Below are positions 1,026 through 19,098 of a stretch of 21,767 bases of DNA, in pieces. A program made the position numbers and the translations under genes. This DNA is from a virus. The notes beneath the pieces are model-generated. The model was not told the origin of the DNA. It saw only the letters and a program-made list of their open reading frames with translations, and ran no database searches. Each line of letters begins with the position of its first letter. Position 1 is the stretch's first letter. The DNA lies in IMG/VR virus record IMGVR_UViG_3300033153_007349, positions 1 to 21,767 of that record; one strand, given 5' to 3'.

Positions 1026-2062
1026 GGGGAGATATTGCCGAGGACACTACCTAGATTGGTCCATGTGACGAGATTATTATTGACAATGTAGAAGCCACCT
1101 GAGAAACCTGGCTGACCATTTTGAGTAGGAGCATCATAAGGATAACCAGCAGCGCTGGGCTCGCCGTTGGCACCATCGCCACCAGGCTGACCCCATGTAC
1201 CGCCGTCACCGCCGACACCACCATTGCCGCCAGGAATGTTATTACCACCAACAGGACCGCTGCCAGGAGAGCCTGGAGTGGGGCTAGGAGTGGGGAGATA
1301 ACCTTGACCGATGCCCCCGAGACCACCTGCTTGACCACTACCAGGAGCACGGGGGAATGATGGAGGTGTGCCAGGGAAGTTCTGGCAACACGTTGGAACA
1401 CAGCACCCAGGAGCACAGAAGCAATTCTGTCCCGTAGGGCTCTGTCCTGGAGGGCAGCCACCACAACAAGTTCCCTGACCAGTGGGAATACAGGATGGAC
1501 CTTGACCTGGATTGATGTTTCTACCATCTCCACCCTGTCCACCGATGCCACCCGCACCACCACCAGCGTATACCTGACCCTGATTGTTAATGCTAATAGG
1601 TGTGAGGGTGAGAATAGCTGTACCACCATCACTGTCTACACCACCAGCGCCCTGAATATCCCCTGCGTTGGAAAGGCTTAGAGAAGCGGATCGAACGGGA
1701 ATAGTCATAGCGGGAGTCGCCGCCACGGTACCCCCCACCACTACTCCACTCTCAATGTTTATCTGGATCGGTAGAGCTGATGCCCATGCGGTGGGATCAA
1801 ATGCATCCACTACTGCCTTGATATCCAAATCTTCATAAGGAGATCCAGCCAGACTCAACGCGATTACAATACCCTTAGAGGCACCATAAAAGTCGGCAAG
1901 TTGAATCGTCAGCCCAGGTACATTAGGAATATTCGCATTAGGAGGAGAATCGGGAACAAGAGCCCCCCCGCGATAATACTGACTAATACTTACGGGGTTA
2001 CTAGCATCAAATTCATCACGTATCTCTGAAAAACGAAGAGTACCAGATGTGGGGAGAGTCAT
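1022..2062 (-). CDS. Glycine-rich fibre-tip or adhesin-like protein with a cysteine cluster
   Basis: 346 residues. Residues 1-64 ([14 protein letters not shown] to LADFYGASKG) form a small N-terminal module that I know from many phage fibre-like proteins. Residues 65-165 look like a beta domain. From 166 to about 325 it is very glycine-rich (GGGAGGIGGQGGDG; GGNGGVGGDGG), interrupted by ten cysteines between 191 and 226. The end (VTWTNLGSVLG) resembles the closing motif of glycine-rich phage tip proteins. Glycine-rich runs of this kind form polyglycine-II sandwiches in T-even gp38 adhesins; equating the two is inference. The ATG overlaps the stop of the S74 fibre gene (ATGA), so the two are probably translationally coupled. 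A role in receptor contact is likely but unproven. Confidence 0.75.
   Translation of the reverse strand: MTLPTSGTLRFSEIRDEFDASNPVSISQYYRGGALVPDSPPNANIPNVPGLTIQLADFYGASKGIVIALSLAGSPYEDLDIKAVVDAFDPTAWASALPIQINIESGVVVGGTVAATPAMTIPVRSASLSLSNAGDIQGAGGVDSDGGTAILTLTPISINNQGQVYAGGGAGGIGGQGGDGRNINPGQGPSCIPTGQGTCCGGCPPGQSPTGQNCFCAPGCCVPTCCQNFPGTPPSFPRAPGSGQAGGLGGIGQGYLPTPSPTPGSPGSGPVGGNNIPGGNGGVGGDGGTWGQPGGDGANGEPSAAGYPYDAPTQNGQPGFSGGFYIVNNNLVTWTNLGSVLGNISP
1385..1492 (-). other. Cysteine cluster inside the glycine-rich domain
   Basis: Codons 191-226 of the adhesin-like protein hold ten cysteines (191, 199, 200, 203, 214, 216, 220, 221, 225, 226), including three CC pairs, spaced by P, G and Q. Cysteine is scarce in the neighbouring fibre proteins. 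The pattern suggests a disulfide-knotted loop or a metal site. Confidence 0.6.
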
Positions 2063-4533
2063 TACTCATTACCTTTAAGTCTTTCCACTTCTTCTTTGAG
2101 TTCTTTAATAGCCTCAATTAGAAGGGGAACAAGCTTTTCATACTTAACTGTCTTATATTCTTCTCCGCTGACAGAGTACTCCTCATTATCAGATGTGTAA
2201 GAGCTATCAAAAGGAGCACGCTTCACAATTTGAGGCAAAACTGCCTCCACTTCCTGTGCAATGACACCCACATGCTCTTCCTTTTGGAAACCATAACTCA
2301 GAGCAACCTCGTTTGGTTCATAAGTTACACCACGTAGGCTGCATACCTTCTCCAACGCATTATCAAGAGGCTTGATATTGTGCTTAAGGCGAAGATCCGA
2401 GAAGAAAGCAGTGATATCTCCAGTGGCACGGATCTCTCCAGTGACACCTGAAGCGGCAGTGCCTACTCCAAAAGAATCAAACTGTACATCTTGAGCCTCA
2501 AAACCACCAGCGGAATCACGCGAGATTATGGCATTTACAGTATTGGTTGGGGTGGCATTAGAAGTAACGGTAAAAGTAATAGGACTTTGACCATCATAAG
2601 TAGCCGAACCACTGAGACCAGGACCAGCAGTAGCTAACGTTAGAGTTGAACCACCTACGGGGATGGTGATGTTTTGAGAACCATCAAATGCAATACCATT
2701 AATAGTACGAGCTGTTTGAAGAACGGTGGCACTATTTGCATTACCTAGAAGGCTAGCAGTAATCTGGTTAGCTGAGAAGTTACCCGACGCATTACGCGAC
2801 ACAATGGTACTGTTATTATTAGCTGACGTGGCATTACTAGTTACAGTGAAGGTAGTATTAGCTCCACTAAAACTAGCCGAACCAGACAAGCCCGTTCCTG
2901 AAGTACCCATAGTTAAGGTACCAACCGTAGCCGCGTCAATAGTAATATCGGAGGTACCATCAAAAGCAACTCCGTTGATTAAGCGGGGCGTAGCTAGCTT
3001 GGTCGCATCTGCCGCTAGAGTAGATGTATCAGCATTACCAGTTACATTACCAGTTAAGTTAGCAGTTACCGCAGTAGCATTAAAAGACCCACTGGGATCA
3101 CGATAGACAAGGGTGTTGGGTGAGCTATTGGATGTGGCATTGCTGGTTACAGTAGCTGTTACGTTAGCAGAGCCATTGAAACTGTTAGGATTGACGCTTA
3201 GCCCATTGCCACTTACTGCAACATCAAAGTCATTATTAACTTGATTGGCACTCGTCGCATTTCCATTAAGTGGACCAGTGAAAATACCAACCACGTTGCC
3301 AGTGACATCACCAGTTACATCACCTGTGATATCCCCAAAGAACTGGGGAGCTGTGAAGTTGACGTTAGAAATCCAAGTATTATTTACATTAGTCCAAGAG
3401 ATTTCCTTTGGTGTGGTTCCCAAGAGAGTGATACCACCACCCTCAGCTGTCACATTACTAGGAACAGGAACGTTACCAAGAGTAATGTTCCTATCTTCCA
3501 CTAGAAGATCCTGCGTATCGATAGTGGTAGTTGTACCGTTGACCGTGAGATCCCCTTGAATAACTACATCCCCATCTGCATTAATATCTTGTACAAAGAA
3601 AGAACCTGTGGGATCTCTAAAGACTAAAGTATCACCTAGATTGGAGGAGGTGCCATTACTAGTTACGGTGAAAACCGTGTTACTACCATTGAATACCGAA
3701 GTACCCGACAAGCCATTCCCACTGGTAGTCATAGTCAGGATACCAGCGGTACCTGCACTCACAGTAATGTCCTGTGTTCCGTCAAACAAGACGCCATTAA
3801 TTCTTCTACCAGGATTGAGCAAGACAGAATATCCTGACACATCCGCATCAATGGGATTGGCAGCAGTTAAAGTAGTCCCATCAAACGTAAGGTTGTTGCT
3901 TCCTTGGAATGCAACACCATTACTGTACATGACAGCATCTGGTGGACCAACAGCTGCAACAACACCAGTAGCACCTGTGGAACCAGTAACACCTACAGGA
4001 CCTGGAGGTCCATTAAAACCAGTGGCTCCTGGAGGTCCTGGAGGACCTGACTGCCCCTGAATACCAATGGGACCTGTTGCACCAGCAGGACCAGGAGAAC
4101 CAGGACCACCTGGAGAACCTACACCCGTAGCGCCTGTTGCACCACGAGGACCGAGAGTGCCAGCAATACCAGGGGCACCTTGATCGCCTTTAGGACCACG
4201 GGGACCCTCAAAGCCTCTGGGTCCTGTAGCGCCATCAGGACCAGGCTGAGTACCTGGAGGTCCTGGAGGACCAGGAGTAACAGAAGTAGCACCAGGAGGT
4301 CCTGGAACACCTGTGGCACCAGTGGGACCTGAGGCGCCAGTAGCCCCTGCGCCAGGACCTGTAGCACCAGTCGCGCCAGGAGTTCCACTCCCTGCAGCAG
4401 ACCAATAGCCAGGACCTGTTGTGGCTAGGGGATCGGCTCTATAAAATCTATAAGTTACGCCCGTTTCGGGGTCCGTAAAAGTAAACGAACCATCACCGAG
4501 TTGTCCTTCAGTATCTGGAAAATTAATAGGCAT
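2062..4533 (-). CDS. Collagen-like tail fibre with C-terminal self-cleaving S74 chaperone
   Basis: 823 residues in four parts. Residues 1-48 are a small N-terminal module ending GYWSAAG, like the start of the 1301-residue fibre. Residues 49-192 are collagen-like Gly-X-Y. Residues 243-684 hold four related repeats of about 70-85 residues with INGVxFDG, GNGLSG, TVTSN and SRDxxGxF signatures (the second lacks the INGVxFDG opening). The last 112 residues are an intramolecular chaperone (peptidase S74 family): [12 protein letters not shown], then [17 protein letters not shown] and a C-terminal coiled coil ([15 protein letters not shown]). Ser712 and Lys717 sit where the autocleavage Ser/Lys pair lies in endosialidase-type chaperones, so the trimer probably cuts off its chaperone after folding. 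A good ribosome site (AAGGA, 9 bases before ATG) supports the start. This is very likely a trimeric host-recognition fibre. Confidence 0.9.
2482..3807 (-). repeat. Four degenerate protein repeats in the S74 fibre shaft
   Basis: Codons about 243-317, 433-501, 516-599 and 608-684 each carry variants of INGVxFDG, an SGxGLSG turn, FTVTSNxT, and a closing (F/Y/S)RDxxGxF. The second copy lacks the INGVxFDG opening. Between copies 1 and 2 lies an unrelated segment with [12 protein letters not shown]. Such repeats are usual in trimeric fibre shafts. Confidence 0.65.
3958..4389 (-). repeat. Collagen-like Gly-X-Y tract of the S74 fibre
   Basis: Codons 49-192 encode Gly-X-Y triplets rich in GATG, GPP and GPR (for example [16 protein letters not shown]), with a few short breaks. 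At DNA level this gives a 9-base periodicity. The tract presumably forms a triple-helical stalk. Confidence 0.85.
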
Positions 4534-4579
4534 CGTTTAGTTCCTTACAAGCTTATTCATCACTAGGATTCCCCTCTAC

Positions 4580-4587
4580 TATATATA
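4580..4587 (-). promoter_or_regulatory. Possible late promoter before the S74 fibre gene
   Basis: TATATATA on the minus strand, one mismatch from TATAAATA, 46 bases before ATG 4533, in one of the longest intergenic gaps of the window (4534-4593). The spacing is longer than at the other candidates, so it is uncertain. Confidence 0.3.
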
Positions 4588-4593
4588 ATCGTT

Positions 4594-6555
4594 CTAAACA
4601 GGGATGATCGCAAAATAGTTATACTCCAAGTTAACAGCCCCTTGAGAGTTAGTACCAGTGAAGAGAAAAAAGCCATTTGTAGTAGGAGTGGAAATATTTA
4701 CAACCCCAGTACTAGTTGAGGAGCCAGAGATGAAGATATAGTCTGCGTTTGGTTGTGGTGTGGAAAATGTAACCGTATACCTACCAGTATTAGTCTTCAC
4801 AATACTACCAATACCTTGTGAAGCTCTAATTGGAACTGGTAATCCAGTACCATTAAGACCATTAAAGTTGCAATAGATAGGAAAGCCAGTACCTGCAGGA
4901 CCAGTGGCACCCTGGACGCCAGTGGCACCTTCCGCACCAGTTAGACCTGTAGGAATAAACTCTACGGTCACATCTTCACTGTTGGCGAAGATTTCACCAC
5001 TCAATGGTGTTACGGTGAAGCGGGCACGAGTCGCAGGATCACCTGCAGTATTAGTACCTTCTACGATAAAGATCGCTGTTGTTGTGGCGCCGTTAGTATT
5101 TGATTTAACAATAAGGGTGCCTCTATTGTCAGTTCTACCTTGTGTTGCCCAAGTGGCGATGTAGTCTTCCTGATCATTGCCATCCCTATCAACATTGTGG
5201 ATACCAATTTGAGTAATGCTAGCGAAAGTACTATTGTTAAATCTTATTTGACCACTGTTTGTGTTGTTGGCGTTGGTATTGGTTACAAATGTATATTGCA
5301 ATCCACCCTTATCACCTTGTGGACCTGTAGCGCCAGTGTCACCCTGCACGCCAGTGGCACCTTGAGGACCTGTAGCGCCAGTGGCACCTTGAGTTGATGC
5401 GGGACCAGGGGGACCTTGGGGACCAGTAGCACCAGGAGGACCCGAAGGACCAGTAGCCCCTGTAGCACCATCACCCGTGCCTCCTCCTCCATTGGGGTTG
5501 GTATCTACCCATTGAGCCGTACCACCTGGCTGAGTTTCAATATAGTAAATATAAAATCTACCATCCTCATCGTTCCACCAGAGGCTGCCATTAACTGGAT
5601 TAGGGGGTGGAGTGGAGCTAATAGTAACTAGAGCAGCGGCTCCTCCCCCACCAGGGCTAGTGTCTACCCACTGAGCAGTTCCGCCTGGAGTATCCTCAAC
5701 ATAATAAACAAACAGTCTGCCATCCTGACTATTCCACCATAGCTGACCTTCCGTGGGATTTCCTGGAGGAGTAGTACTAACAACTACTGGAGGATCTCCT
5801 CCACTACCCCCACCTGGACTGGTATCAACCCACTGTGCAGTATTGCCATCATTATAGTAAACAAATAACCTCCCATCCTCATCGTTCCACCAGAGAGCAC
5901 CAGGAGCAACATTACTGGGAGGAGTAGAACCAATGATGACGAGAGCATCTCCACCAGCACTAGGACTTGTATCTACCCACTGTGCCGTATTACCGTCATC
6001 ATAATAAACGAACAGCCTACCATCAGAGTCGTTCCACCAGAGAGCCCCAGGAGACACGCTTGGGGGAGGAGTACTAGAAATAATTACAGGAGCACTACCA
6101 CTCCCCGAAGGATTAGCATCTACCCATTGCGCAGTACTCCCATCATCATAATAAACAAACAGTCTGCCATCCTCACTGTTCCACCACAGATCCCCCTGCC
6201 TCGGATCTAGAGGGGGAGTGGGTGAAATAGTTACTATACCCCCTCCCGTGCCACCACCAGGACTGGCATCTACCCATTGGGCGGTGTTACCATCATCATA
6301 ATAAATGTAGAGTCTCCCCTCATTGTCGTTCCACCACAGTTGACCTGGAGTAGCTGGCTCAGGAGGAATCTGACCAATGGTAACAACGACCTGACCCCCA
6401 ACAAGGATGGAGGTGAGGTCGGTGGATTCAAGCGCCTGGTCGGTTTGATTGTAAGTAACAATTTGATTGACAGGAACCTGTCTTCTCGTTGTAAGTTGAA
6501 CTAAACCATCTTGCCTGACCAGGAGAGTACCATTACTGGGTATCTTGTCGATCAT
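4594..6555 (-). CDS. Fibre protein with six tandem W-rich repeats, short collagen stalk and head domain
   Basis: 653 residues. After an N-terminal segment of about 55 residues come six tandem repeats of 49-52 residues (about 56-359), each with LWWN..DGRL.VYY and a TAQWVD end, joined by Gly/Ser linkers. A collagen tract follows (360-418), then a beta domain (419-535) opening LQYTFVTNTN with RFNN and RGTLIVKSN, then a second very short collagen piece (about 536-557). The last 95 residues (NFNGLNGTGLPVPIR, TGRYTVTF, NADYIFISGS) look like a head domain common at the ends of phage fibres. The ATG overlaps the TAA stop of the 1301-residue gene (TAATG), suggesting coupled translation. It is probably a structural fibre; its binding partner is unknown. 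Confidence 0.8.
   Translation of the reverse strand: MIDKIPSNGTLLVRQDGLVQLTTRRQVPVNQIVTYNQTDQALESTDLTSILVGGQVVVTIGQIPPEPATPGQLWWNDNEGRLYIYYDDGNTAQWVDASPGGGTGGGIVTISPTPPLDPRQGDLWWNSEDGRLFVYYDDGSTAQWVDANPSGSGSAPVIISSTPPPSVSPGALWWNDSDGRLFVYYDDGNTAQWVDTSPSAGGDALVIIGSTPPSNVAPGALWWNDEDGRLFVYYNDGNTAQWVDTSPGGGSGGDPPVVVSTTPPGNPTEGQLWWNSQDGRLFVYYVEDTPGGTAQWVDTSPGGGGAAALVTISSTPPPNPVNGSLWWNDEDGRFYIYYIETQPGGTAQWVDTNPNGGGGTGDGATGATGPSGPPGATGPQGPPGPASTQGATGATGPQGATGVQGDTGATGPQGDKGGLQYTFVTNTNANNTNSGQIRFNNSTFASITQIGIHNVDRDGNDQEDYIATWATQGRTDNRGTLIVKSNTNGATTTAIFIVEGTNTAGDPATRARFTVTPLSGEIFANSEDVTVEFIPTGLTGAEGATGVQGATGPAGTGFPIYCNFNGLNGTGLPVPIRASQGIGSIVKTNTGRYTVTFSTPQPNADYIFISGSSTSTGVVNISTPTTNGFFLFTGTNSQGAVNLEYNYFAIIPV
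5479..6390 (-). repeat. Six tandem 49-52-residue W-rich repeats
   Basis: Codons 56-359 contain six copies with spacing of about 150 bases. Constant features are TPP or IPP near the start, an LWWN core, DGRL.VYY or close variants, and QWVD before a Gly/Ser linker. Copies 5 and 6 share an extra PGG before TAQWVD, so they may derive from one another most recently. Confidence 0.85.
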
Positions 6556-9500
6556 TATGCAATGCCTGTAATAATGCCATTAGTCACTGTAACAGTATCC
6601 CCATCCCCGTTGGTAAAGGTACCAGTGAATCCAGTGAGAGGATTAACATACTGAACACCTGCAACCGAAATATCCCAGAATGCACCGTCTAATGAGCCTG
6701 TGCCAATTACGTTTTCAGTTCCACCAGCAAACACATAGGTGTCAGTATCAGAATAGAAGTAACCTGTGAGTACTTCTTGGCGATCAAACCTATCTTGCGT
6801 AGACTTAAAGTAGATGAAGACAGTGGACAGAGGAGCAGCATTATCTGCAACCGTATCAAGATAGCCAGACTGATCATTACCAAAAATGGAAGTGCGACTG
6901 ATAATAGAGAAATTAGACTGACCATTTACAGACTGTGGTTGAGTGGGATCCTCTTGCAAGAACTGACCTGACACGAGTGTAGGATAGTTAGCAGCTGTGT
7001 TGAGGGTCCATGTAGATGTAGTTGGGGGAGTGAAGAAGCTGGTGCTGATTTCACAGAGAGCTTCTAGAGAAACTTCACTACCAGTTCTACCACCATTATC
7101 TAGGAAGATATCGATGAACGTTCCCGCTCCAGTTGTAACAGGAGCCGAGACTGCAGCCACATCATATGTGTAGACCGTAGCTGGAACAGAGAGATTGCGG
7201 ATGAATAGAGTCGCACCCTGAACCACCTGAGTAGTGAGAAGAGTGGTCTGATCATTACCAGGATCATCAAAGACTGATAGACGCAAATGTCTTAACTCAG
7301 TATTATTAGCAGGACTTCCTAGAACAACATCCGTATAGCCATTACCATTGGCGGAACCCATTCTTACGAAGCTGTTTCTCTGCCAGGTATCACTAGACGC
7401 ACCCTGTGGACCTTGAGCCCCAGGTACGCCAGGGCTGCCGCCTGGACCAGTTGGACCAGGGAATCCTTGTGTACCAGGAGGACCAGTAGGACCTTCGGGA
7501 CCTTCAATGCCCTGATTACCAAGAGGTCCTTGAATACCAGTAGCACCAACAGGACCAGTAGAGCCAGTTGCACCAGTGGCACCAGTAGGACCGATGACAC
7601 CCGTTGCACCAGTGGCACCTGTAACGCCTGCAGGACCAGGACCACCGCTAAGACCTTGCAATCCCTGTGGACCTTCGATACCTTGAGTACCAACTAACTG
7701 ACCTACCGATACCCATGCAGCACCATCCCAAGTGAAACCTTCATCGTCAGCGATGACATAATAAAGATCACCAGCTGTGCCAGGGGTGGGAATGGAAGCT
7801 TGGTTAGCAACCGCACCAGTTAACTGAAGACCACCAGGACCTTGAGGACCAGTTGCGCCCTGTACACCAGTGGCACCAGTAGCACCACCAACGAATCCTG
7901 GAGGACCTTGGGGACCTTGAGCACCTTGAGGACCAGTAGGACCGAGCAAGCCAGTAGCACCTGTGGCGCCGCTGGTGGGACCTGGAGGACCTGCAGGACC
8001 TACGGGACCTGTAGGACCGTCATTACCTGTAGGACCTTGAAGACCAGTGGCTCCGAGTCCACCATCGGTACCCGACTGACCTTGATTTCCCTGTACACCC
8101 GTCGCACCAATAGGACCAGTGGCACCAGTAGCACCATTGAGACCAATACCAGGGAAGCCTTGAATACCTGTAGCACCAATAGGACCTTGGAGACCTGTAG
8201 CTCCTGGAACGCCAGTCGCACCATCCGTACCATTAGTACCAGGAGTACCATCATTACCAGGAGTGCCTGGAACACCAGAGAAACCAGTAGCTCCTGTTGC
8301 ACCTGTTGCGCCATTAGGAGGACCTGGAGGACCTTGGAGACCTGTAGCACCAGTAGATCCTTCAGCACCTGTAGCGCCAGTAGTACCAGTAGCACCGTTT
8401 GGTGGACCTTGAGGACCAGTAGAGCCTTGAATACCTGTAGCTCCTGTTAAGCCCGTTGCACCTACGGGACCTGTAGGACCAGTAGAACCAGTAGCGCCAT
8501 TAGGGGGACCAGGAGGACCATTCTGACCTGCAGGACCAATCGGACCAGTAGCACCCGCAATACCCGTAGCACCAGTCGCGCCGTTAGCAGGACCTGGAGG
8601 ACCAGCGGGACCAGGAGGACCACCTGGAGATGGAGTGGCAGAAGAAATACCAATTACTTGGACATTCCATGGAGCGGCAACTGAAGAAGTGCCGTTATAT
8701 AGTTCGATAGTATTACCAACGTAGATATAAGTATCAATACTACTGTAGTAATAACCACCACCAACTTCAAAGCGGAAAAATGCGCCTTGATCTAGTTGAT
8801 ATTGGAAGTTGTTTAGACCAGGAACATTAGCTAGAGGTTCAAAGAAGTATAGAGAAGCATCTCTGCCTAGTTCATCAACTGGATTAAAAGCAACGTACTT
8901 GGGATAACCATTAAACTCAAACTCGTTATCAATGGTTACTTCACCCTGCGCGGTGGGGAAGGTGATAGGAATAACACCAAAGCTAATTTGTTGCTGCGCA
9001 GTTGTACGGCTGTTGGTAAAGGTGACGTTTTCATCAGCTCCATTACCGAGAACACCTGAACCAGAACCATCACTAACTAGAATAGTGTAGCACTGAACTC
9101 CGTTAGATGTAGTCTCACCTGCATTAGCACGCACAGTGTAACTATAAGTAGCAGCTGGAGTTAGATTATTCGTGACGGTAATAACATCGCCAGGTAACAA
9201 GTTGGCGGGGAAGGTCCCTGTACTGAAACTGGGGAACTTCATAACGCGGAGATCCGCATCAGGAGAGTTAGCTACCACACGGAAGTTATCAGCAGCCAGA
9301 CGAGAAACGGAAGGATCCCAGAAATAAGTAATACCGCCAGCTGCACCAGTTAAACCAGTGGCACCTGTAGATCCTGTAGCCCCACGGAAGCCTTGAGGAC
9401 CGTTAGGACCTGTTGGACCAGTTGCACCTGTAGAACCAGCACCAGTAGCACCAGGAGGACCTTCAGGACCAGTAGAGCCAGTTGCACCAGGCTGACCAAT

Positions 9501-10460
9501 ACCAGTAGGACCATCGGGACCTGTAGCACCCGTTTCACCTTGGGGACCAGTGGCACCCGTGGCACCAGATGCACCAATACCAGTAGCACCTGTTGCTCCA
9601 TTGGGGGGACCAGGAGGTCCTACAGGACCCGTTGCACCAACGCCAGTAGCACCTGTAGATCCTGTAGGACCAGTGAATCCAGTCGCACCAGGAAGACCTG
9701 TAGGACCATTAGGACCAGTAGCCCCAGGCTCACCAGTAGGACCAGTGGAACCAGTTGAACCAGGAACTGTAGAGTCTGCGCCAGTTGCGCCAGTTAGACC
9801 CGTGGCACCAGTTGCACCTGTAGAGCCCTGTGGACCAGTTGCACCAGTAGCACCACCAGGAGATCCACCAGGACCAGTTAGACCAGTAGCACCTGTAGCA
9901 CCAAATCCACCTAGAGCACCTGTAGCTCCAGTAGCACCACTAGGACCCTCAATACCAGTCGCCCCTGTAGCACCATCAGGGGGACCTGGAGGTCCTTGTT
10001 GACCAGTTGCACCAGGAACACCTGTAATACCTTGAGGACCTGTAGCACCCGTTGCACCACCAGCAGGACCTACGGGACCTTCAGGACCTACGGGTCCAGT
10101 CGCACCAGTGGAACCTAGGGGACCAGTCGCACCTGTAGTTCCTGGAGGTCCTTGAGGACCAGTTGCACCACCTGGAGAACCAGCAGGACCTGTTGCCCCT
10201 GTTAAACCAATAAATCCGCGCTTACCTTCGACCCCTGTAGCACCAGTAGAGCCTTGGGGACCACGATTACCAGGATGACCTGAAGCACCAGTAGCACCAG
10301 AGCCAGTGGCGCCAGTCGGTCCAGTGGCACCTGTAGCGCCGACGCCTGTACCAGGACCAATAGCTGACCAAAACTCACCCTTCCAAACGTAGGTAATATT
10401 GGTATCAATATCTAGAAAAGTATCCCCTGGTTGTGGATTAGCGGGAAATTGAATTGACAT
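6555..10460 (-). CDS. Giant collagen-like tail fibre with three collagen tracts
   Basis: 1301 residues, the largest gene here. Residues 1-37 ([12 protein letters not shown], then [12 protein letters not shown]) form an N-terminal module like that of the S74 fibre, probably the attachment end. Collagen tract 1 spans about 38-376, a beta domain about 377-610, collagen tract 2 about 611-877, a small W-containing insert about 878-923 ([23 protein letters not shown]), collagen tract 3 about 924-1021, and a C-terminal beta domain about 1022-1301. The two large beta domains seem related: both have a YxYxxxDTYxxxG stretch followed by a W-containing strand. Collagen triplets are mostly GATG and GPxG with Thr often in the Y place. 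The ATG fits the conserved N-terminal module, but no clear SD is seen; CTAAATA lies 31 bases upstream. It has no S74 domain, so trimerisation must come from another part. Confidence 0.85.
7398..7691 (-). repeat. Collagen tract 3 of the giant fibre
   Basis: Codons about 924-1021, continuous Gly-X-Y with [14 protein letters not shown] at the start and [12 protein letters not shown] at the end. Confidence 0.8.
7830..8630 (-). repeat. Collagen tract 2 of the giant fibre
   Basis: Codons about 611-877, Gly-X-Y triplets with repeated [11 protein letters not shown]-type interruptions where one extra residue breaks the triplet register. Confidence 0.85.
9333..10349 (-). repeat. Collagen tract 1 of the giant fibre
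   Basis: Codons about 38-376, the longest Gly-X-Y stretch of the window, dominated by [10 protein letters not shown] with periodic one-residue interruptions (for example [14 protein letters not shown]). Confidence 0.85.
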
Positions 10461-11160: not shown

Positions 11161-12000
11161 TTAGTTCTCCAGACAGTCAATGATTTCGATGAGTTCGGCA
11201 CGAGTAACTCTTTCATTTAATGTGCCTGGTAGATTTCCATCCTGAATATCTTCAAGAGGGGGAAGAGGAATAAGAATAGGGCGAAGGTTGAGTCCCTTCC
11301 CCACCTTCACATTACATGTAATAACCTCACCCGTTCTGCCATCATAAATGCACTCATCTCGATAAACGCCATTGGGAGGAATAGCAGGCACGCTGAAGGG
11401 AAAATTGAGGGTGGGGATATCGGGAACCTGTACAATATTTATTGGGAGCACAGCAGTTACTTTGCCATCTTCATCAGTAATGACTTCATATTCACCACCA
11501 TACTGATCTTCCACAATACCAGGAACATAACCAGAACCGCCAGCTACAACCTCCACTGTATCTACCACAAAGAGATCTTCCCCAGCTGCTGGATAATCTA
11601 CGCCAGGTTGAATAATATAGATGCGACTCACCTTTCCATCTTTGATGACTGCCTGAGCCTGAGCCCCACGACCTAATCCACAGTTATCGGTGATAGTTAC
11701 AAAGGGAGGATAAACATAGCCACTACCCCCATCAAGTACCTCTACCGATACAATTCCACCCTGCACTTGACTAACGGTGCGAGGATCTACTGATGCGGCA
11801 TAATCTCCCACAATAGGTCTGGCTACTGCACCCGAACCACGACCCCCAAAAATAGTAATAGTGGGTGCATAGCAAGTATCGGGAGGGGCAGTCGTGCAAC
11901 CATTGAGTGACTGTTGCTTACTACTCTCACTGCTAAGAATAGGGAAAGCGCCAAAGGTCTGGTCAAAAAGACTATCAGTGGTTTTACATTTCCCCCACAC
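11161..12000 (-). CDS. C-terminal part of gp5 in the -1 frame, or separate gene from GTG
   Basis: 279 codons in the -1 frame relative to gp5, opening with GTG right after an in-frame TAA. The product has two related beta segments with GGSGYV (VSVEVLDGGSGYVYPP; VEVVAGGSGYVPG) and a helical end (RVTRAELIEIIDCLEN). This region reads as normal protein, whereas the overlapping gp5 frame reads as low-complexity hydrophobic sequence. Two explanations stand: a -1 frameshift at G GGA AAT (11988-11994) that would join 377 gp5 residues to 275 residues from here (652 in all), or independent initiation at GTG 12000, which has AGGGA 8 bases upstream. A missing G in the G5 run would also split one gene this way. 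I favour one polypeptide. Confidence 0.7.
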   Translation of the reverse strand: MWGKCKTTDSLFDQTFGAFPILSSESSKQQSLNGCTTAPPDTCYAPTITIFGGRGSGAVARPIVGDYAASVDPRTVSQVQGGIVSVEVLDGGSGYVYPPFVTITDNCGLGRGAQAQAVIKDGKVSRIYIIQPGVDYPAAGEDLFVVDTVEVVAGGSGYVPGIVEDQYGGEYEVITDEDGKVTAVLPINIVQVPDIPTLNFPFSVPAIPPNGVYRDECIYDGRTGEVITCNVKVGKGLNLRPILIPLPPLEDIQDGNLPGTLNERVTRAELIEIIDCLEN

Positions 12001-13118
12001 TTATTCGGTCCCTGTCCTACACTGAGCAAACCGCCCGAGAAATCTCTAACAATATCCACCGAGGAACGCAAGATGGAAGTAGCTGCAAAACCTCCACTTA
12101 GGATTTCTGCCACCCCATTGAGAAGAGGCTGAAGACCCCTATCAATATCATTAATGATGGCATTCACAAGGGCGGCTGTGAATTGAGAACCTGCACACTC
12201 ACTAAAGTTCGCGTTGTTTGCAACTGCATCCCTAATAAGAGCATCAACCGTATCTAAAAGCTCGTCTACAACCTTCGCAGCTAAGAGTGAAATTGCCTCC
12301 TGAAGGGCTAGAACTGCAGGCATAAGTGCTTCCATAGCAGCTTCGCCAGCTTCCTGAGCAATGATGGGATTCTGCGTAGTGGCTAAGACTGCTGCATAAA
12401 TGGTATCGTAAAGAGCTTTAAGACCTTGATTTAGGACGGGAGTAAGAGCATTGAATACGTTATTAAAAAGGTCGCCAACATAAGGATTAACAAGAGAATG
12501 GACCCTATCAATAGCGCCCTGAATAATGCTGTCAACGTAAGCACTATCGGTAGTACGGGAGATTTGATTGAATAGATTGTTGATCTCTGAAATAATCGCA
12601 TTAGTTTTATATGAGTTAGGATCGCAGGTATCTGCGGGAATCATCGTGTCCCCAACCACGTTAGAAAACTCTCGGGTAGGAGTTGTGGGAGAACTATCCG
12701 CGTTGGATTCATTCGATTCAGTAGTAGGAGTCTTAGGATTACGATCTTTATTGGGAGTAAAACCTGTTTGAGGAATATAACCATCCGAGTCATTAGGTTC
12801 CCCGTTTCTTACTTCAGTGGTGCGAGGAAGAACACCTGTGATGACTGGCTGTTGTTCATCCCTATCCAGATAAGCAATCGAGACAGTATCACCTACGTTC
12901 AACTGAGGAGTTTGTACATAATTAGCTCCACCAGATCCCGCAGTTACAGGTAGCAGCACCTGTGCCCAAGGCAAATCTTTGTCGGGAAGGACACTCTTAT
13001 CGGGAGTATGCTTATCAAAGATGCGAACCTTGTAGCGCTGCGCCCAACCAGCACCATCAACCTGCGTGCCCTGAGCCTCAACGGGTGCAATTCTGCCAAA
13101 GTATAATCGATTGTTCAT
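11823..13118 (-). CDS. gp5: Baseplate hub spike protein gp5 (OB-fold), N-terminal frame
   Basis: 431 codons. Residues 1-100 (NNRLYFGRIAPVEA, then RYKVRIFDKHT, WAQVLLPVTAG, VGDTVSIAYLDRDEQQPVITG) are the OB-fold of T4 gp5-type spike proteins. A low-complexity linker rich in N, T, P and S follows (about 105-150), then a long helical region (165-350). I see no lysozyme motif, unlike T4 gp5; the lytic enzyme seems to be the separate protein two genes upstream. The last 54 residues after Asn377 (VKPLIVFLTRPLALSLFLAV...) look like out-of-frame translation of the gene in the -1 frame, with which this frame overlaps by 178 bases. The real product probably shifts frame at 11988-11994. It starts 2 bases after the gp27-like gene. 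Confidence 0.85.
   Translation of the reverse strand: MNNRLYFGRIAPVEAQGTQVDGAGWAQRYKVRIFDKHTPDKSVLPDKDLPWAQVLLPVTAGSGGANYVQTPQLNVGDTVSIAYLDRDEQQPVITGVLPRTTEVRNGEPNDSDGYIPQTGFTPNKDRNPKTPTTESNESNADSSPTTPTREFSNVVGDTMIPADTCDPNSYKTNAIISEINNLFNQISRTTDSAYVDSIIQGAIDRVHSLVNPYVGDLFNNVFNALTPVLNQGLKALYDTIYAAVLATTQNPIIAQEAGEAAMEALMPAVLALQEAISLLAAKVVDELLDTVDALIRDAVANNANFSECAGSQFTAALVNAIINDIDRGLQPLLNGVAEILSGGFAATSILRSSVDIVRDFSGGLLSVGQGPNKCGGNVKPLIVFLTRPLALSLFLAVRVVSNSHSMVARLPLPILAMHPLLLFLGVVVRVQ
11988..12013 (-). other. Candidate -1 frameshift site in gp5 (G GGA AAT)
   Basis: In the gp5 frame the codons TGT GGG GGA AAT contain the heptamer GGGAAAT (11994 down to 11988) in the X XXY YYZ register, one base from the known lambda tail-gene heptamer GGGAAAG. 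An SD-like AGGGA (12009-12013) lies 14 bases upstream, at the far end of the stimulatory range. A slip gives ...NKCGGN then CKTTDSLF in the downstream frame. No strong stem is obvious just downstream; CACTG/CAGTG can pair only over about 50 bases. A missing base in the G run is a serious alternative. Confidence 0.5.
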
Positions 13119-14482: not shown

Positions 14483-14490
14483 TATTTATC
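14483..14490 (-). promoter_or_regulatory. Late promoter GATAAATA before the gp27-like gene
   Basis: GATAAATA on the minus strand matches the NATAAATA late promoter of T4-like cyanophages, 24 bases before ATG 14458. It overlaps the TGA stop of the lysin gene (TGATAAATA). It could start a hub-fibre transcript. Confidence 0.6.
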
Positions 14491-15787
14491 AGGTCAAAAC
14501 AGTATTAGTTTGCTTCATAATAATGACATTTTCACCCCCTAAATTGGTCCTCAAGGACGCCGCTGCTAAGGTAAGATCTCTGGCTCTTTCTTCTGCGGTA
14601 CCCGTCATATTGGAAGCAGTGCTCGTGGTCCCCTTCTTCAGTCTTCCAATTTCAAGGAGATTAAGGAAAGCTTGAGGATTAATCTGCTGGTCTCCCGAAA
14701 GAACTTCATAATGTAGGTGCTCGCCTGTACTATGCCCTGTATTACCAATCTCACCAATTACTGTGCCTGCAACATATCTTTGACCACTCTTCACCATAGC
14801 CTTGCGTAGATGGGCATATCTATAAGTATAACGTCCTGCTTTAATCTCCACCATAATACCATAGCCTCCAGCCGTACCAGAGAAAGTAACAGTTCCATTA
14901 ATTTTAGCTGCCACATACCAGCCCTTACCCCCACTGGTACCAATATCAATGCCTTTATGATCAGTGGAACCAATGCCCCCAGGAGAAGCACGGAGACCAA
15001 AATCACTAGTCTTACCCACAGGTCCCGTACCCCCTTCCCCCGCAGACTTAGAGAACTGCTCGTAGGGAATTTTGTCTGTAAGCATGGAAGCACCGTTATC
15101 CTCAGCTGGGTCAGGAGCTTGCATGCTCCCACCCCCACTTTTCTGTGTATTGTCATTCACTTGCCCAAAGCTACCCATGAGTTCCTCGGGAGATACTGTA
15201 GCTTTGTTCAAGCCATCACCCGAATAGTAGCTTTGCCCCCTATTTACGGTCCTTGTATTCCCTTTCGTGGTGCTTAGCACAGGAAGACCTGCCCACTCCA
15301 TAGCAAGCCTTCTAGCCGCTTCTAGGGGGTTATCCTTGACCATATCCACAGTAACTCCTCTCTTTTTCTCGATGAGAGCAATTGCCATCTTGTCTTGGTT
15401 TGCTGGAGAGAAGATATCATCACCAGAGAGCCCTGCATTGGCTGCCTGATCAAGAATATTCATAAATTGATAGCGTCCTGCTGCTGCCGAACCACGACTA
15501 CCAGCGGTACGCGACTGCCAATCATCGGCTTCCGCAATGGTCATTTGAGATAGACCTACCTTCGTTCTACCAGGATAAACGGAGTCATAAGAACCTCCCA
15601 CCGACTCAGCTTTAGCAATAAGCTCTAAGACAGGACCCCATCCCTCTTTTCCTGCACTAGAACCTTGAGAACCTCTACCAAAAGCACTGGTAGTAGGCTG
15701 AGTATTCTGCTCTGCCGCAACTGCCGTGGCTTTTTTAACAGCCTCCTCCAAACCTTCGCCGTTATCCCTCACTTCGGTTCCATACAT
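14489..15787 (-). CDS. Tail lysin: lambda R-like transglycosylase plus M23 endopeptidase
   Basis: 432 residues with two peptidoglycan-cutting domains. Residues about 48-190 resemble the lambda R (GH104) lytic transglycosylase: LELIAKAESVGGSYD with Glu61 in the place of the catalytic acid, AAGRYQFM, IFSPANQDKMAIALIEKKRG, and AARRLAMEWAGLP. A Gly/Ser-rich linker follows. Residues about 260-375 are an M23 (LytM-like) peptidase: GIGSTDHKGIDIG with His277 and Asp281, YAHL with His326, and GEHLHYEV with His357/His359, the complete zinc and catalytic set. The first cuts glycan strands, the second peptide cross-bridges. There is no signal peptide, and the gene lies between the tape-measure and hub genes, so it is probably carried in the tail for entry rather than used for final lysis. 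Its start overlaps the preceding gene by 26 bases. Confidence 0.9.
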   Translation of the reverse strand: MYGTEVRDNGEGLEEAVKKATAVAAEQNTQPTTSAFGRGSQGSSAGKEGWGPVLELIAKAESVGGSYDSVYPGRTKVGLSQMTIAEADDWQSRTAGSRGSAAAGRYQFMNILDQAANAGLSGDDIFSPANQDKMAIALIEKKRGVTVDMVKDNPLEAARRLAMEWAGLPVLSTTKGNTRTVNRGQSYYSGDGLNKATVSPEELMGSFGQVNDNTQKSGGGSMQAPDPAEDNGASMLTDKIPYEQFSKSAGEGGTGPVGKTSDFGLRASPGGIGSTDHKGIDIGTSGGKGWYVAAKINGTVTFSGTAGGYGIMVEIKAGRYTYRYAHLRKAMVKSGQRYVAGTVIGEIGNTGHSTGEHLHYEVLSGDQQINPQAFLNLLEIGRLKKGTTSTASNMTGTAEERARDLTLAAASLRTNLGGENVIIMKQTNTVLT

Positions 15788-16373
15788 TTTTCATCTCACT
15801 GAAGGAAGTATTAATCTCTTCCACTCCCTCATCCATCTCCAGTTTAGCCTCTCTTAGCCTCCCCGAAGTATCATTAAAATCAAATTCAGAGATGTTTTTG
15901 AGAAAGGCTTTAGTAATGTTCACCATACCAGTAAAGGTTGTTCCAACCGCACGAAGTGCGTTCTTTACTGTAGCAACAAATATCCTTGCTTTCTTAGTAA
16001 ATATTTTAACCTCTTTAATAATAGAGGGAAGATTATCGATCACCCACGCAGCAAGAAGTTTCCACAAAGCGTTGAGTGGTTTAACTACAATATTTTTAAA
16101 GAGAGACTTGGTAAACCTTTCTTTTTTTTCTCCTCTCTCTTCTTTAGCCATACGCTCATCATCTTGGCGATATCTTTTTTTGAGCTCTGCCTTCTTTTTT
16201 TTCGCTTCCTTATATCTTATATTTGCTTGGCGTAGCTGGTCGGCAGTTCTACTCCCTAGGTCACTCCCAAAGTCCATCACTGACCTAGCCCCACCACGAA
16301 ATGAAGCTGCCCCTCTAGTGAGAGACTGCCCAACACGCAATGCAGCGCCAGAAATAGGAGATACAGCTGCCAT
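15762..16373 (-). CDS. Tail protein sharing a motif with the tape measure
   Basis: 203 residues. Residues 45-90 are a highly charged K/E/R coiled-coil-like helix (KEAKKKKAELKKRYRQDDER). Residues 94-126 carry NIVVKPLNALWKLLAAW and IDNLPSIIKEVKIF, nearly the same as a block in the 611-residue protein encoded just before it. The rest is helical (KNALRAVGTTFTGMVNITKAFLKN). It starts 3 bases after the stop of that protein and overlaps the lysin gene at its end. I do not know a family name. It may be a short tape-measure paralogue, a hub plug, or an internal tail protein delivered with the lysin. No clear SD is present; translation may be coupled to the preceding gene. Confidence 0.75.
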   Translation of the reverse strand: MAAVSPISGAALRVGQSLTRGAASFRGGARSVMDFGSDLGSRTADQLRQANIRYKEAKKKKAELKKRYRQDDERMAKEERGEKKERFTKSLFKNIVVKPLNALWKLLAAWVIDNLPSIIKEVKIFTKKARIFVATVKNALRAVGTTFTGMVNITKAFLKNISEFDFNDTSGRLREAKLEMDEGVEEINTSFSEMKNVWNRSEG

Positions 16374-16376
16374 GAC

Positions 16377-18212
16377 TTATGATGAAAGTAAATCGAATTT
16401 TTCGGTAGCATAGATTCTATAGAAATCCATATCAGGATCTCTGGTGAGATATGCAGGGGCAACATCGGCTGAAGCGCCGCTTGATTCCTGTGCAGGTTCC
16501 TCGGGCTTTCTTAGATCGGTTACCGTCCCTGGCAATTCAATAAAAGTTACATTGCTACCATAAGCGCTCTTGATTTCCATACCATCAGGAGTACTTCCAC
16601 CCACTTTGGAACTAAAATCAGGAGTGCGAGTTCCCATCTCACCACTGGCAGGTGCAGGGGGAGATCCTGTTCCAATTTCACTGGCATCCCCTGTCAAAGT
16701 ATCTTTGACTGCGGCTACTATTCCACCTCCAGCTACTACATTCTCAGTTCTTGTATTACCAGTCCAAGCCTCATATCTGCCAGCCCCATATTGATCACCA
16801 ACCGCACCGACAGCAGCGCCAGCTAGACCCCCCACTTTAGCACCCACAGATGCCGAGACGCCCCCCACGATAGAGGAACCAAGGGCACGAATAATTGCCT
16901 CGGTCCAAGTCTGTCCAGCTACCTGTTTGTTAAGGGCTAGGTCGATGGCAAAGCCAATACCAGGAACTAATCGAACCGCATTTCCCAGTAGCCTACCAAC
17001 TTTACCTATACCTTTAGCCAGGGCGGGAAACTTGTCAATAATGGGACCTAGAGCTTGCTTAATCCAACCCGTCCTGTCCGCTGCGTCCCTGACAGGAACA
17101 CCTGCAAACTTGGACATTTTATCGCTAAGAGAGCCACCCACATTAGCCAGAGCATTACGCCCCTGATCCATAAGATCCTTACCAAATCCAGTAAGCTGTT
17201 TAAAAATATTCTTGATGGACTTAGGTTTAGGTGCAGGATCACCTCCTGGGAGAGCAACATTAGCAAAGGGGCGATTAGCACGCAATGCGGCTCTTTGAGA
17301 GCCAGCCGCAGTTCTGCCAGTTGCTCTAGCACCACCAGCTCCCCCTCCTCGGGGTCTAATAGCATCCGCAATTCCCTTAATACCTTTCGATGCCCATGCG
17401 GATAACGCTTTAACTCCCTTTTCTAAGAGTTCACCCAAATACTTAGTAATAGTATTAAGTACTTTACCTCCGATGGTGGCGGCTTTTTTGCCCATCCACA
17501 GTCCCAGATCCAAAGCCTTCTTAGCTACGAATCTGATTGCTTTATTAACTCCCTTTAGAGTATTGTCGATAATACTCCAAGCACCTCTAACGCGAGTCAG
17601 ATCATTTTCAAGAAACTCCTGCAGAGTGGGGAGTTCATCCATAAAGGTTTGTACCTTCTCCATAATAGCGGGAAGGTTATCAATAGCCCACGCACCCACC
17701 AATAACCAGAGAGCTTTGCGCAGCCTCTCCAAAAAGCCTCCGACAGGCTTTACAATTTTCCTACCAGCTGCTTGACCAGCACGAATAAAACCAGAAGTAG
17801 CCTTGGCTAAGTTGTCAAGTACAAACTCTCGGGCTCTACGTAGCTTATTAACTCTTTCCTTTTCTAATTGATCAGTCTCTTTCTTCTCAGCAGCAATCTC
17901 CGCCTTTCTAGTATCTAAAACTGAGGTGAAGAGAATTTGAATATTCTTTTTGTTCTCCTCTACTTGCTCACCGATATTCTCGGCAGTCTTCTCATAAGTC
18001 TTTTGTAGAGTCTGGACAATCTCACCCAGCTTTGGCTTGGAGATAACAATAGCAGACTGTGGACTGACACCAGGGCGAGCAGAATTGGCGCCTGCACCAG
18101 AACCCCCACCCATACCTCTAGAGGCGCGGAACATGGCTACGCGCTGCTCTTTAGTTAGATAGGTGCCTGTCTGCGGGTCAACTCCCTTTGTAGCGGCGCC
18201 GAATAGATCCAT
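16377..18212 (-). CDS. Tape-measure protein candidate (gp29 position)
   Basis: 611 residues, close to the 590 of T4 gp29, the tape measure that sets tail length. A Gly/Ser-rich start is followed by a long coiled coil (about 60-130, EIVQTLQKTYEKTAENI... ETDQLEKERVNKLRR), then the IVKP...ALWLLVGAW.IDNLPAI block (152-190) shared with the next gene. More helical, K/A/G-rich sequence follows, then a hydrophobic Gly/Ala-rich stretch (IVGGVSASVGAKVGGLAGAAVGAVG, about 440-475 in parts) able to enter membranes, and a low-complexity tail. Placed right after the gp26/gp51 pair, where tape-measure genes normally stand. The ATG overlaps the TAA of the small gene (TAATG) with AGGG 7 bases upstream. Assigned by size, helix content and place, not by clear identity to gp29. 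Confidence 0.7.
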   Translation of the reverse strand: MDLFGAATKGVDPQTGTYLTKEQRVAMFRASRGMGGGSGAGANSARPGVSPQSAIVISKPKLGEIVQTLQKTYEKTAENIGEQVEENKKNIQILFTSVLDTRKAEIAAEKKETDQLEKERVNKLRRAREFVLDNLAKATSGFIRAGQAAGRKIVKPVGGFLERLRKALWLLVGAWAIDNLPAIMEKVQTFMDELPTLQEFLENDLTRVRGAWSIIDNTLKGVNKAIRFVAKKALDLGLWMGKKAATIGGKVLNTITKYLGELLEKGVKALSAWASKGIKGIADAIRPRGGGAGGARATGRTAAGSQRAALRANRPFANVALPGGDPAPKPKSIKNIFKQLTGFGKDLMDQGRNALANVGGSLSDKMSKFAGVPVRDAADRTGWIKQALGPIIDKFPALAKGIGKVGRLLGNAVRLVPGIGFAIDLALNKQVAGQTWTEAIIRALGSSIVGGVSASVGAKVGGLAGAAVGAVGDQYGAGRYEAWTGNTRTENVVAGGGIVAAVKDTLTGDASEIGTGSPPAPASGEMGTRTPDFSSKVGGSTPDGMEIKSAYGSNVTFIELPGTVTDLRKPEEPAQESSGASADVAPAYLTRDPDMDFYRIYATEKFDLLSS

Positions 18213-18385
18213 TAACTACCCTGTTGTTGTTTTGCCTCTTGTTCCTCGATCCATTGCTTGAGAAGTACGATGTAAATTTCGCGTTCCCAAGGGAACATAT
18301 TTTCTAGTTCACTTAAACTATATTTATGGTGCTGGACGAGGGCAAAGTTGGTCTTATAGTATGACTCAAGGTCTTCATGAGCCAT
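18212..18385 (-). CDS. Small gp51-like tail-assembly protein, or the C-terminal half of a gp26 fusion
   Basis: 57 codons from ATG 18385 (MAHEDLESYYKTNFALVQHH, then SLSELENMFPWEREIYIVLL). From memory this resembles the small protein that follows gp26 in T4-like cyanophages, annotated there as gp51-like hub assembly factor. The ATG is two bases beyond the gp26 stop and is buried in a 10-bp stem-loop, with AGG only a base or two away, so free initiation looks poor. An earlier in-frame ATG at 18424 (70 residues) has GAGGAA 8 bases upstream and is an alternative start. The frame is also reached by a -1 slip at the end of gp26, giving a 295-residue fusion. In the lambda G/GT system such a fusion is the tape-measure chaperone. 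TAA overlaps the tape-measure ATG. Confidence 0.7.
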   Translation of the reverse strand: MAHEDLESYYKTNFALVQHHKYSLSELENMFPWEREIYIVLLKQWIEEQEAKQQQGS

Positions 18386-18415
18386 ACCTACGCGAAAAAA
18401 GATTGCAATCCTTCC
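18359..18415 (-). other. Candidate programmed -1 frameshift signal linking gp26 to gp51
   Basis: Minus-strand order: SD-like GGAAGGA (18409-18415), 8 bases, slippery heptamer T TTT TTC (18394-18400) exactly in the gp26 frame, 6 bases, then a stem-loop with arms GTATGGCTCA (18378-18387) and TGAGTCATAC (18359-18368), 9-base loop, one G-U pair, and a further possible G-U at the base. Slipping yields ...LQSFF then RVGMAHEDLESYY. All three usual elements of bacterial -1 frameshifting are present at usual distances. The gp26 stop is only three bases after the heptamer's next codon begins. Confidence 0.75.
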
Positions 18416-19098
18416 AGAACACATTCATTCACTTCCTCGGTATTTGGATTGGTTACCATGATGACGTGCTTGAGTTTAGGCATTGTGAGGAAAAATTCTT
18501 CTATCTTTTGGAACTGTGAAGGTTGTAATGACTCAACCCATTCCACTAGCTCTTCTTCAGTAGAATCAGCCGCTGTAAAAGACTCCTCTTCGGTATAGAT
18601 TTGACCAATGCAGTTAGCAATAAGCTTAAAGCTCTGCTCTACACTGATGTCTTCGATGTCAGCCGACAGAGCCATATCAACAGTGGGATACTTCATCTCC
18701 ACCGACCACTTATTATCGAGTTTAATTTTATTGGTGTGGGCATCATCCATCATAACCCCCACTTCACTAAGGTGAATGGTAAGGGGAACTTGGGTTACAC
18801 CGTCATCTGCACAAGTATAGATGACTTCTACATCCTCACCAACCGAACGACCACGGATAGCGAGGAAGAGATATTCAACATCGAAAGTCGCTAGTTCGTC
18901 AACGTTAAAACCACGTGTGAGAACACAAGCATCGATAACAGCTTTAATCGCATTAATCACTTCACGCTCACTTCCGCTTTCGCGAGCTAAGATGAGGACC
19001 TTTTCTTCTTTAACTAGGTAAGGTCTAAACTTAATTTTCTTTCCTGTAGAAGGAACAGTCAGTTCATGATTGACATGCGCAATCTTAGGCAATGACAT
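18388..19098 (-). CDS. gp26: Baseplate hub subunit gp26
   Basis: 236 residues. The opening LPKIAHVNHELTVPSTGKK, then IKFRPYLVKEEKVLILARESG is the signature of the T4 gp26-type base plate family (Pfam T4_baseplate). The middle (VEYLFLAIRGRSVGEDVEV) and the end (FQKIEEFFLTMPKLKHVI, ECVLEGLQSFF) also fit. In T4 the product acts in hub assembly. Members resemble the chaperones encoded just before tape measures in other tailed phages. It is followed by the gp51-like frame, and its last codons (TCT TTT TTC GCG TAG) form the slippery site. A CTAAATA element is 22 bases before the ATG, and GAGAG is the likely ribosome site. Confidence 0.85.
   Translation of the reverse strand: MSLPKIAHVNHELTVPSTGKKIKFRPYLVKEEKVLILARESGSEREVINAIKAVIDACVLTRGFNVDELATFDVEYLFLAIRGRSVGEDVEVIYTCADDGVTQVPLTIHLSEVGVMMDDAHTNKIKLDNKWSVEMKYPTVDMALSADIEDISVEQSFKLIANCIGQIYTEEESFTAADSTEEELVEWVESLQPSQFQKIEEFFLTMPKLKHVIMVTNPNTEEVNECVLEGLQSFFA

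Follow-up and report, generated by a model that had tools for sequence, protein, structure and literature searches.

A conserved -1 frameshift site between gp26 and "gp51" points to a tail assembly chaperone locus in T4-like cyanophages

In the genome records that we inspected, gp26 and gp51 are annotated as separate genes, or the second of them carries no annotation at all (Aeh1, Maynard, Menlow and 3M). The locus described here raises the question of whether these two reading frames encode two independent proteins, or a short protein and its frameshifted extension.

The gp26-gp51 junction in a cyanophage tail module

The window, i.e., the entire 21,767-nt stretch of IMG/VR record IMGVR_UViG_3300033153_007349, derives from a metagenomic ocean cyanobacterial virus. 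Gene-by-gene matching of the whole window revealed a T4-like cyanophage tail module on the minus strand, which comprises genes for the tail tube, the tube cap, a gp53-like wedge protein, gp26, a gp51-like protein, a 611-aa protein, and M23-peptidase and hub proteins; the first three of these genes are located upstream of gp26. The features of the junction are as follows.

18388..19098, minus strand: gp26, the short tail assembly chaperone (TAC-N), 236 aa (PF12322, phrog_150, fold model)
18409..18415, minus strand: Shine-Dalgarno (SD)-like GGAAGGA, with 8 nt between motif and heptamer (direct reading)
18394..18400, minus strand: slippery heptamer TTTTTTC, X_XXY_YYZ register (T TTT TTC; direct reading)
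18359..18387, minus strand: stem-loop, putative stimulator, 10 bp with a 9-nt loop (recoding null and covariation)
18212..18394, minus strand: -1 frame extension (TAC-C), named gp51 or baseplate hub assembly catalyst in relatives (phrog_634, phrog_150, alignments)
16377..18212, minus strand: next gene, 611 aa, putative tape measure (position and phrog_3405)

On the minus strand, the 3' end of gp26 reads ...GGA TTG CAA TCT TTT TTC GCG TAG, which places the heptamer two codons ahead of the gp26 stop codon. The initial annotation had described most of this arrangement from the sequence, and our reading agrees with it throughout: T TTT TTC lies in the correct register, exact to the base at 18400-18394; GGAAGGA is found exactly 8 nt upstream (18415-18409); and a 10-bp stem with a 9-nt loop begins 6 nt past the heptamer, its arms being GTATGGCTCA (18387-18378) and TGAGTCATAC (18368-18359) with one G-U pair among the 10 bp. 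An extra outer G-U pair could lengthen this stem to 18358/18388. The -1 frame runs without a stop codon from the heptamer into the gp51-like protein, as had been claimed, and yields an unbroken fusion of 295 aa (...LQSFFRVGMAHEDLESYYK...).

Other minus-strand genes of the window show irregular frames or repeats. The gp5-like hub/lysozyme gene (11161-13118) shifts frame near position 12000 beside a G run; both of its parts are in one frame in S-CAM7, relatives possess intact copies, and this frame change is probably a sequence or assembly indel. At 14489-16373 two overlapping ORFs of 203 aa and 432 aa, the latter with the M23 peptidase, each match a different portion of the 653-aa family phrog_3572; the 203-aa ORF also matches an ACG-2014f protein labelled peptidase M23; judged by these matches, the gene is split in the window and single in some relatives. 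In the region 2062-10460, tail fibre-like genes encode extended collagen-like Gly-X-Y repeats (GATGATGPQ).

Conservation of the heptamer and its flanking elements

For the comparison of junctions, gp26 relatives were taken from IMG/VR irrespective of what follows the gene, and 128 distinct junctions were obtained; since these sequences are mutually related, the counts given below are not independent, although the set includes 24 TAC-C sequences that differ from one another by more than 30%. The alignment of related junctions that the initial annotation had proposed as a check shows the heptamer and the -1 register to be conserved in 128 of 128 cases. T TTT TTN is present in register in all of them (106 with C, 17 with T and 5 with A as the last base), and this comparative evidence excludes chance. 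In all 128 junctions the -1 frame stays open for 55-67 codons past the gp26 stop, and the +1 frame closes early in most relatives. The position of the gp26 stop drifts between 0 and 24 nt after the heptamer; the heptamer itself stays put. The residue ahead of the two phenylalanines is variable (S, N, D, A, T or G), and the third base of its codon is T in every junction, compared to 81% T in such a position in the gp26 bodies; the first Phe codon is likewise always TTT (128/128), compared to 75% TTT in the gp26 bodies. Among isolates, both the heptamer with its T run and the -1 extension are kept in S-PM2, S-CAM7, ACG-2014f, S-SSM7, P-HM1, P-RSM6 and Melnitz, and also in the more distant Aeh1, nt-1, phiM12 and Mendera. 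In the Aeh1 record, an unannotated gap (3217-3384) between gp26 and the next gene contains the -1 extension.

In 124 of the 128 junctions, 8-9 nt separate the end of the SD-like core from the heptamer. This core is encoded by a Glu-Gly pair, for which the Glu codon is GAG in 109 of 122 cases, compared to 31.5% GAG in the gp26 bodies. This bias indicates that the RNA is selected at this position, and not the protein alone.

The stem of the window has a calculated folding energy of -14.9 kcal/mol, which is unremarkable by folding alone since its z value is only -1.8 when compared to dinucleotide shuffles. Such shuffles are a weak null model for the hairpin (mean z -0.96), and the synonymous-recoding null was decisive: compared to recodings that preserve the -1 protein, the window stem reached z -3.8 (p 0.003), and the 50-nt region following the slip site gave a mean z of -2.31 (SE 0.12) over 121 junctions when the -1 frame was recoded synonymously. 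Covariation was assessed in an ungapped alignment of the window and its 76 nearest relatives. In this alignment 77% of the cells are paired at the window stem, compared to 27-50% in slid controls; 38 cells are changed in both arms, compared to 13.7 +/- 3.0 in shuffles; and the covariation score is 0.207 versus 0.136, with none of 500 shuffles scoring as high. Columns 21-35 pair as U-A, G-C or A-U, so that a codon's wobble base tracks the middle base of another codon. Sub-clades outside these 76 relatives possess other hairpins at nearly the same place, and some have none. Compensatory stem changes, which the initial annotation had proposed to look for, were thus found; the stem itself belongs to several sub-clades and not to all. 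Because the heptamer is invariant while the hairpins differ or are absent by sub-clade, the stem appears as a replaceable stimulator and the heptamer does not.

In about ten relatives a short palindromic stem, located just past the slip site, replaces the long one and displays paired substitutions (GGTTC/GAACC, GATCC/GGATC, GGTCC/GGACC). Considered as a family-wide feature, this short stem showed no excess over shuffles in the whole set, and it was retained as a sub-clade feature only.

Identity of the encoded proteins and alternative readings of the junction

The gp26 protein matches PF12322 (T4_baseplate; E 8e-66) and phrog_150 (E 2e-70), and T4 gp26 aligns over its full length with the window's gp26 family (E 1e-17). 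Searches of the gp26 sequence against solved structures gave no match, and fold comparison alone succeeded. With the AlphaFold model (pLDDT 86.5) as the query, the top PDB match in Foldseek was the HK97 tail assembly chaperone 2ob9, with a probability of 0.97 and a weak E value of 0.29. By VIA-align, residues 1-86 of gp26 match 2ob9 with Z 7.8 (rmsd 3.9, 84 aligned), where a Z near 8 can also reflect a common structural arrangement; 3fgx gave Z 8.0 (rmsd 3.8, 86 aligned) and 3klu YqbN gave Z 7.4 (rmsd 4.1, 86 aligned). All three matches fall on gp26 residues 1-95, and the next unrelated entry has Z 2.5. The modelled N-terminal domain of gp26 therefore matches a TAC-like fold.

The gp51-like segment matches phrog_634 (E 1e-28) and also positions 231-278 of phrog_150; its protein alignment is conserved, and the resulting profile matches the C-terminus of T4 gp51. 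T4 gp51 itself covers positions 13-280 of phrog_150, including the TAC-C part, and the match of T4 gp26 ends at 235. Based on this coverage we read gp26 as TAC-N and the -1 segment as TAC-C; T4 gp51, which spans both parts, corresponds to a complete TAC-NC. A direct profile match of T4 gp51 to the gp26 alignment was short and probably misregistered and was set aside; the homology was settled by the PHROG scan. On these sequence relationships, the "gp51" of the window, which comprises the TAC-C part only and lies co-directionally with gp26 in its -1 frame, most plausibly represents the C-terminal extension of a tail assembly chaperone made by frameshifting. The start codon of the following 611-aa gene overlaps the TAC-C stop codon by one base (TAATG). 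The 611-aa protein matches phrog_3405, a family to which no function is assigned, and has homologues in 49 Synechococcus phages that cover at most 73% of it; its gene would be that of the tape measure.

We therefore consider it highly probable that the TAC locus of this T4-like cyanophage uses a -1 frameshift to give both TAC-N and a 295-aa TAC-NC (gp26 and gp26-51), which would coat the tape measure. Most ribosomes would read gp26 through to its stop codon. A minority would pause at TTTTTTC, kept in place through pairing of the upstream SD-like GGAAGGA with the 16S rRNA and through the stem-loop past the heptamer; both tRNA-Phe would then slip back by one base, and translation in the -1 frame would provide the 295-aa TAC-NC as the minor product. 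As with lambda gpG/gpGT, TAC-N and TAC-NC would together form a coat on the product of the downstream tape measure gene, and TAC-C would serve to bring in the tail-tube subunits. The initial annotation had likewise proposed a gp26/gp26-51 pair made by a -1 frameshift just before the tape-measure position; the heptamer, the register and the compensatory changes support it, and production of the fusion, the proportion of the two products and a part in building the tail are inferred.

Other readings of the junction have to be weighed against ribosomal frameshifting. An independent gp51 could be translated from the ATG at 18385, through reinitiation or through coupling to the preceding translation of gp26, with the poly-T tract being incidental; this ATG lies 2 nt past the gp26 stop and five codons after the slip site, and GenBank records list gp51 as a separate gene. 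Such a start codon is, however, not a general property of the locus: the -1 frame of 13 of the 128 junctions contains neither ATG nor GTG nor TTG ahead of codon +16, and in Aeh1 the earliest possible start is codon +20. The SD-like motif, moreover, is spaced for the heptamer and lies approximately 23 nt from the gp51 ATG, and this ATG forms part of the 5' stem arm, which bears out the initial annotation's remark that the stem covers it. An independently initiated gp51 also leaves the invariance of the heptamer, with its fixed synonymous positions, unaccounted for, and the T4 counterpart is a TAC-N plus TAC-C protein. We regard this alternative as very unlikely.

The same fusion might arise from transcriptional slippage on the T run, which has six T residues in all relatives and seven in 17 of them. 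Efficient transcriptional slippage usually requires longer runs, and in five relatives TTA breaks the second Phe codon. Furthermore, slippage by the RNA polymerase would not require that the run keep a single codon register, that an SD-like element lie at a constant distance from it, or that a hairpin in the translated region undergo compensatory changes, and we judge such slippage to be even less probable than an independent gp51. That the two frames merely reflect an indel introduced by sequencing or assembly into a truly single-frame gene is refuted by the relatives, given that the two-frame layout recurs in 128 junctions and in finished isolate genomes; the metagenomic origin of the window, and the other gene in it that seems to shift frame at a homopolymer, speak for an indel, whose likelihood we nevertheless consider negligible.

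Relation to known chaperone loci

In phage lambda, the G/GT genes encode a short chaperone and its -1 frameshifted extension immediately upstream of the tape measure gene (PMC5009743). The window shares with this system the short chaperone and the -1 extension and, provided that the 611-aa gene encodes the tape measure, would also share the place in front of it. No sequence similarity of the lambda protein to gp26 is detectable, and the lambda slip site is G GGA AAG, whereas in the window T TTT TTC is flanked by an SD-like element and a stem-loop. A conserved -1 TAC frameshift with a T-rich site before the tape measure gene has also been described for the Vandenendeviridae/Andersonviridae (phage Adele; PMC12846349); these are other phage families, with GTTTTT as the slip motif instead of TTTTTTC.

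Tail assembly chaperone genes of T4-like phages were identified by Vladimirov, Gautam and Davidson (2022, Virology), according to passages of PMC12846349 and PMC10885494; the former, citing that study, mentions poly-T -1 signals in the TAC-N genes of some T4-like groups, and the latter separate short and fusion copies in other groups. As far as these passages convey, the genes concerned belong to the same 26 and 51 families as those of the window. The 2022 abstract reportedly proposes that TAC-NC frameshifting is conserved in several T4-like groups and that the T4 group uses separate genes. Many tailed phages, T4 relatives among them, are known to frameshift in this way. This type of locus is thus already known and its biology largely described, and the window is a very well supported new example of it. 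In the limited literature searched, we found no description of the stem covariation, the codon bias at the SD-like element or the Ackermannviridae site (see below), and searches combining gp26, gp51 and frameshifting turned up unrelated phages only.

T4 itself differs from the window. Its genes 26 and 51 are separate and adjacent but divergently transcribed; gene 51 encodes a 249-aa full-length chaperone, whereas the window possesses the TAC-C part only, in a co-directional -1 frame. Gene 26 of T4 ends with GAG TTC TTT GAG, without a heptamer, and the -1 frame at this point is gene 25. Owing to the divergent orientation and to a gp51 that contains both TAC-N and TAC-C, T4 has no frameshift here. 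The initial annotation had placed T4 genes 26 and 51 side by side and knew of no frameshift; they are indeed adjacent and T4 has none, but their divergence had been missed, and frameshifting in T4-like phages had already been described.

The gp26 homologues of the Ackermannviridae (about twenty genomes, among them Maynard, Menlow, Bue1 and 3M) belong to the same family and keep the -1 TAC-C extension, which has no start codon near the junction and carries no annotation in the records of Maynard, Menlow and 3M. In place of T_TTT_TTC, their site reads [AG] [AG]TT TTC followed by AT[TC] T[AG]A (GAGATTTTCATTTAA), at which perfect re-pairing is possible for the second codon only. This [AG]_[AG]TT_TTC resembles the G_GU-type shift site of T7 gene 10 (PMC5009743). 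Tentatively, and with slightly less than an even chance of being right, we propose that the Ackermannviridae make the same chaperone pair at a site of the T7 gene 10 kind, that the T run was fixed family-wide while hairpins were swapped between clades, and that the T4 branch lost the site on gaining a full-length copy. In the Vibrio phages K369 and K469 the -1 extension is open and no X_XXY_YYZ heptamer is present, the site being A_CTT_TTC or G_CTT_TTT; the gp26 stop and a start codon overlap in these phages, and this start may be used.

Collectively, the slip site, the SD-like element and the hairpin form a clean cassette with natural compensatory variants, and T4 provides the contrast, with a separate gene for each of these two products. 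Our analysis indicates that gp26 is a tail assembly chaperone in cyanophages and not a baseplate hub protein, and the protein named "gp51, baseplate hub assembly catalyst" in cyanophages is most plausibly the C-terminal portion of this chaperone, made by frameshifting, rather than a separate catalyst.
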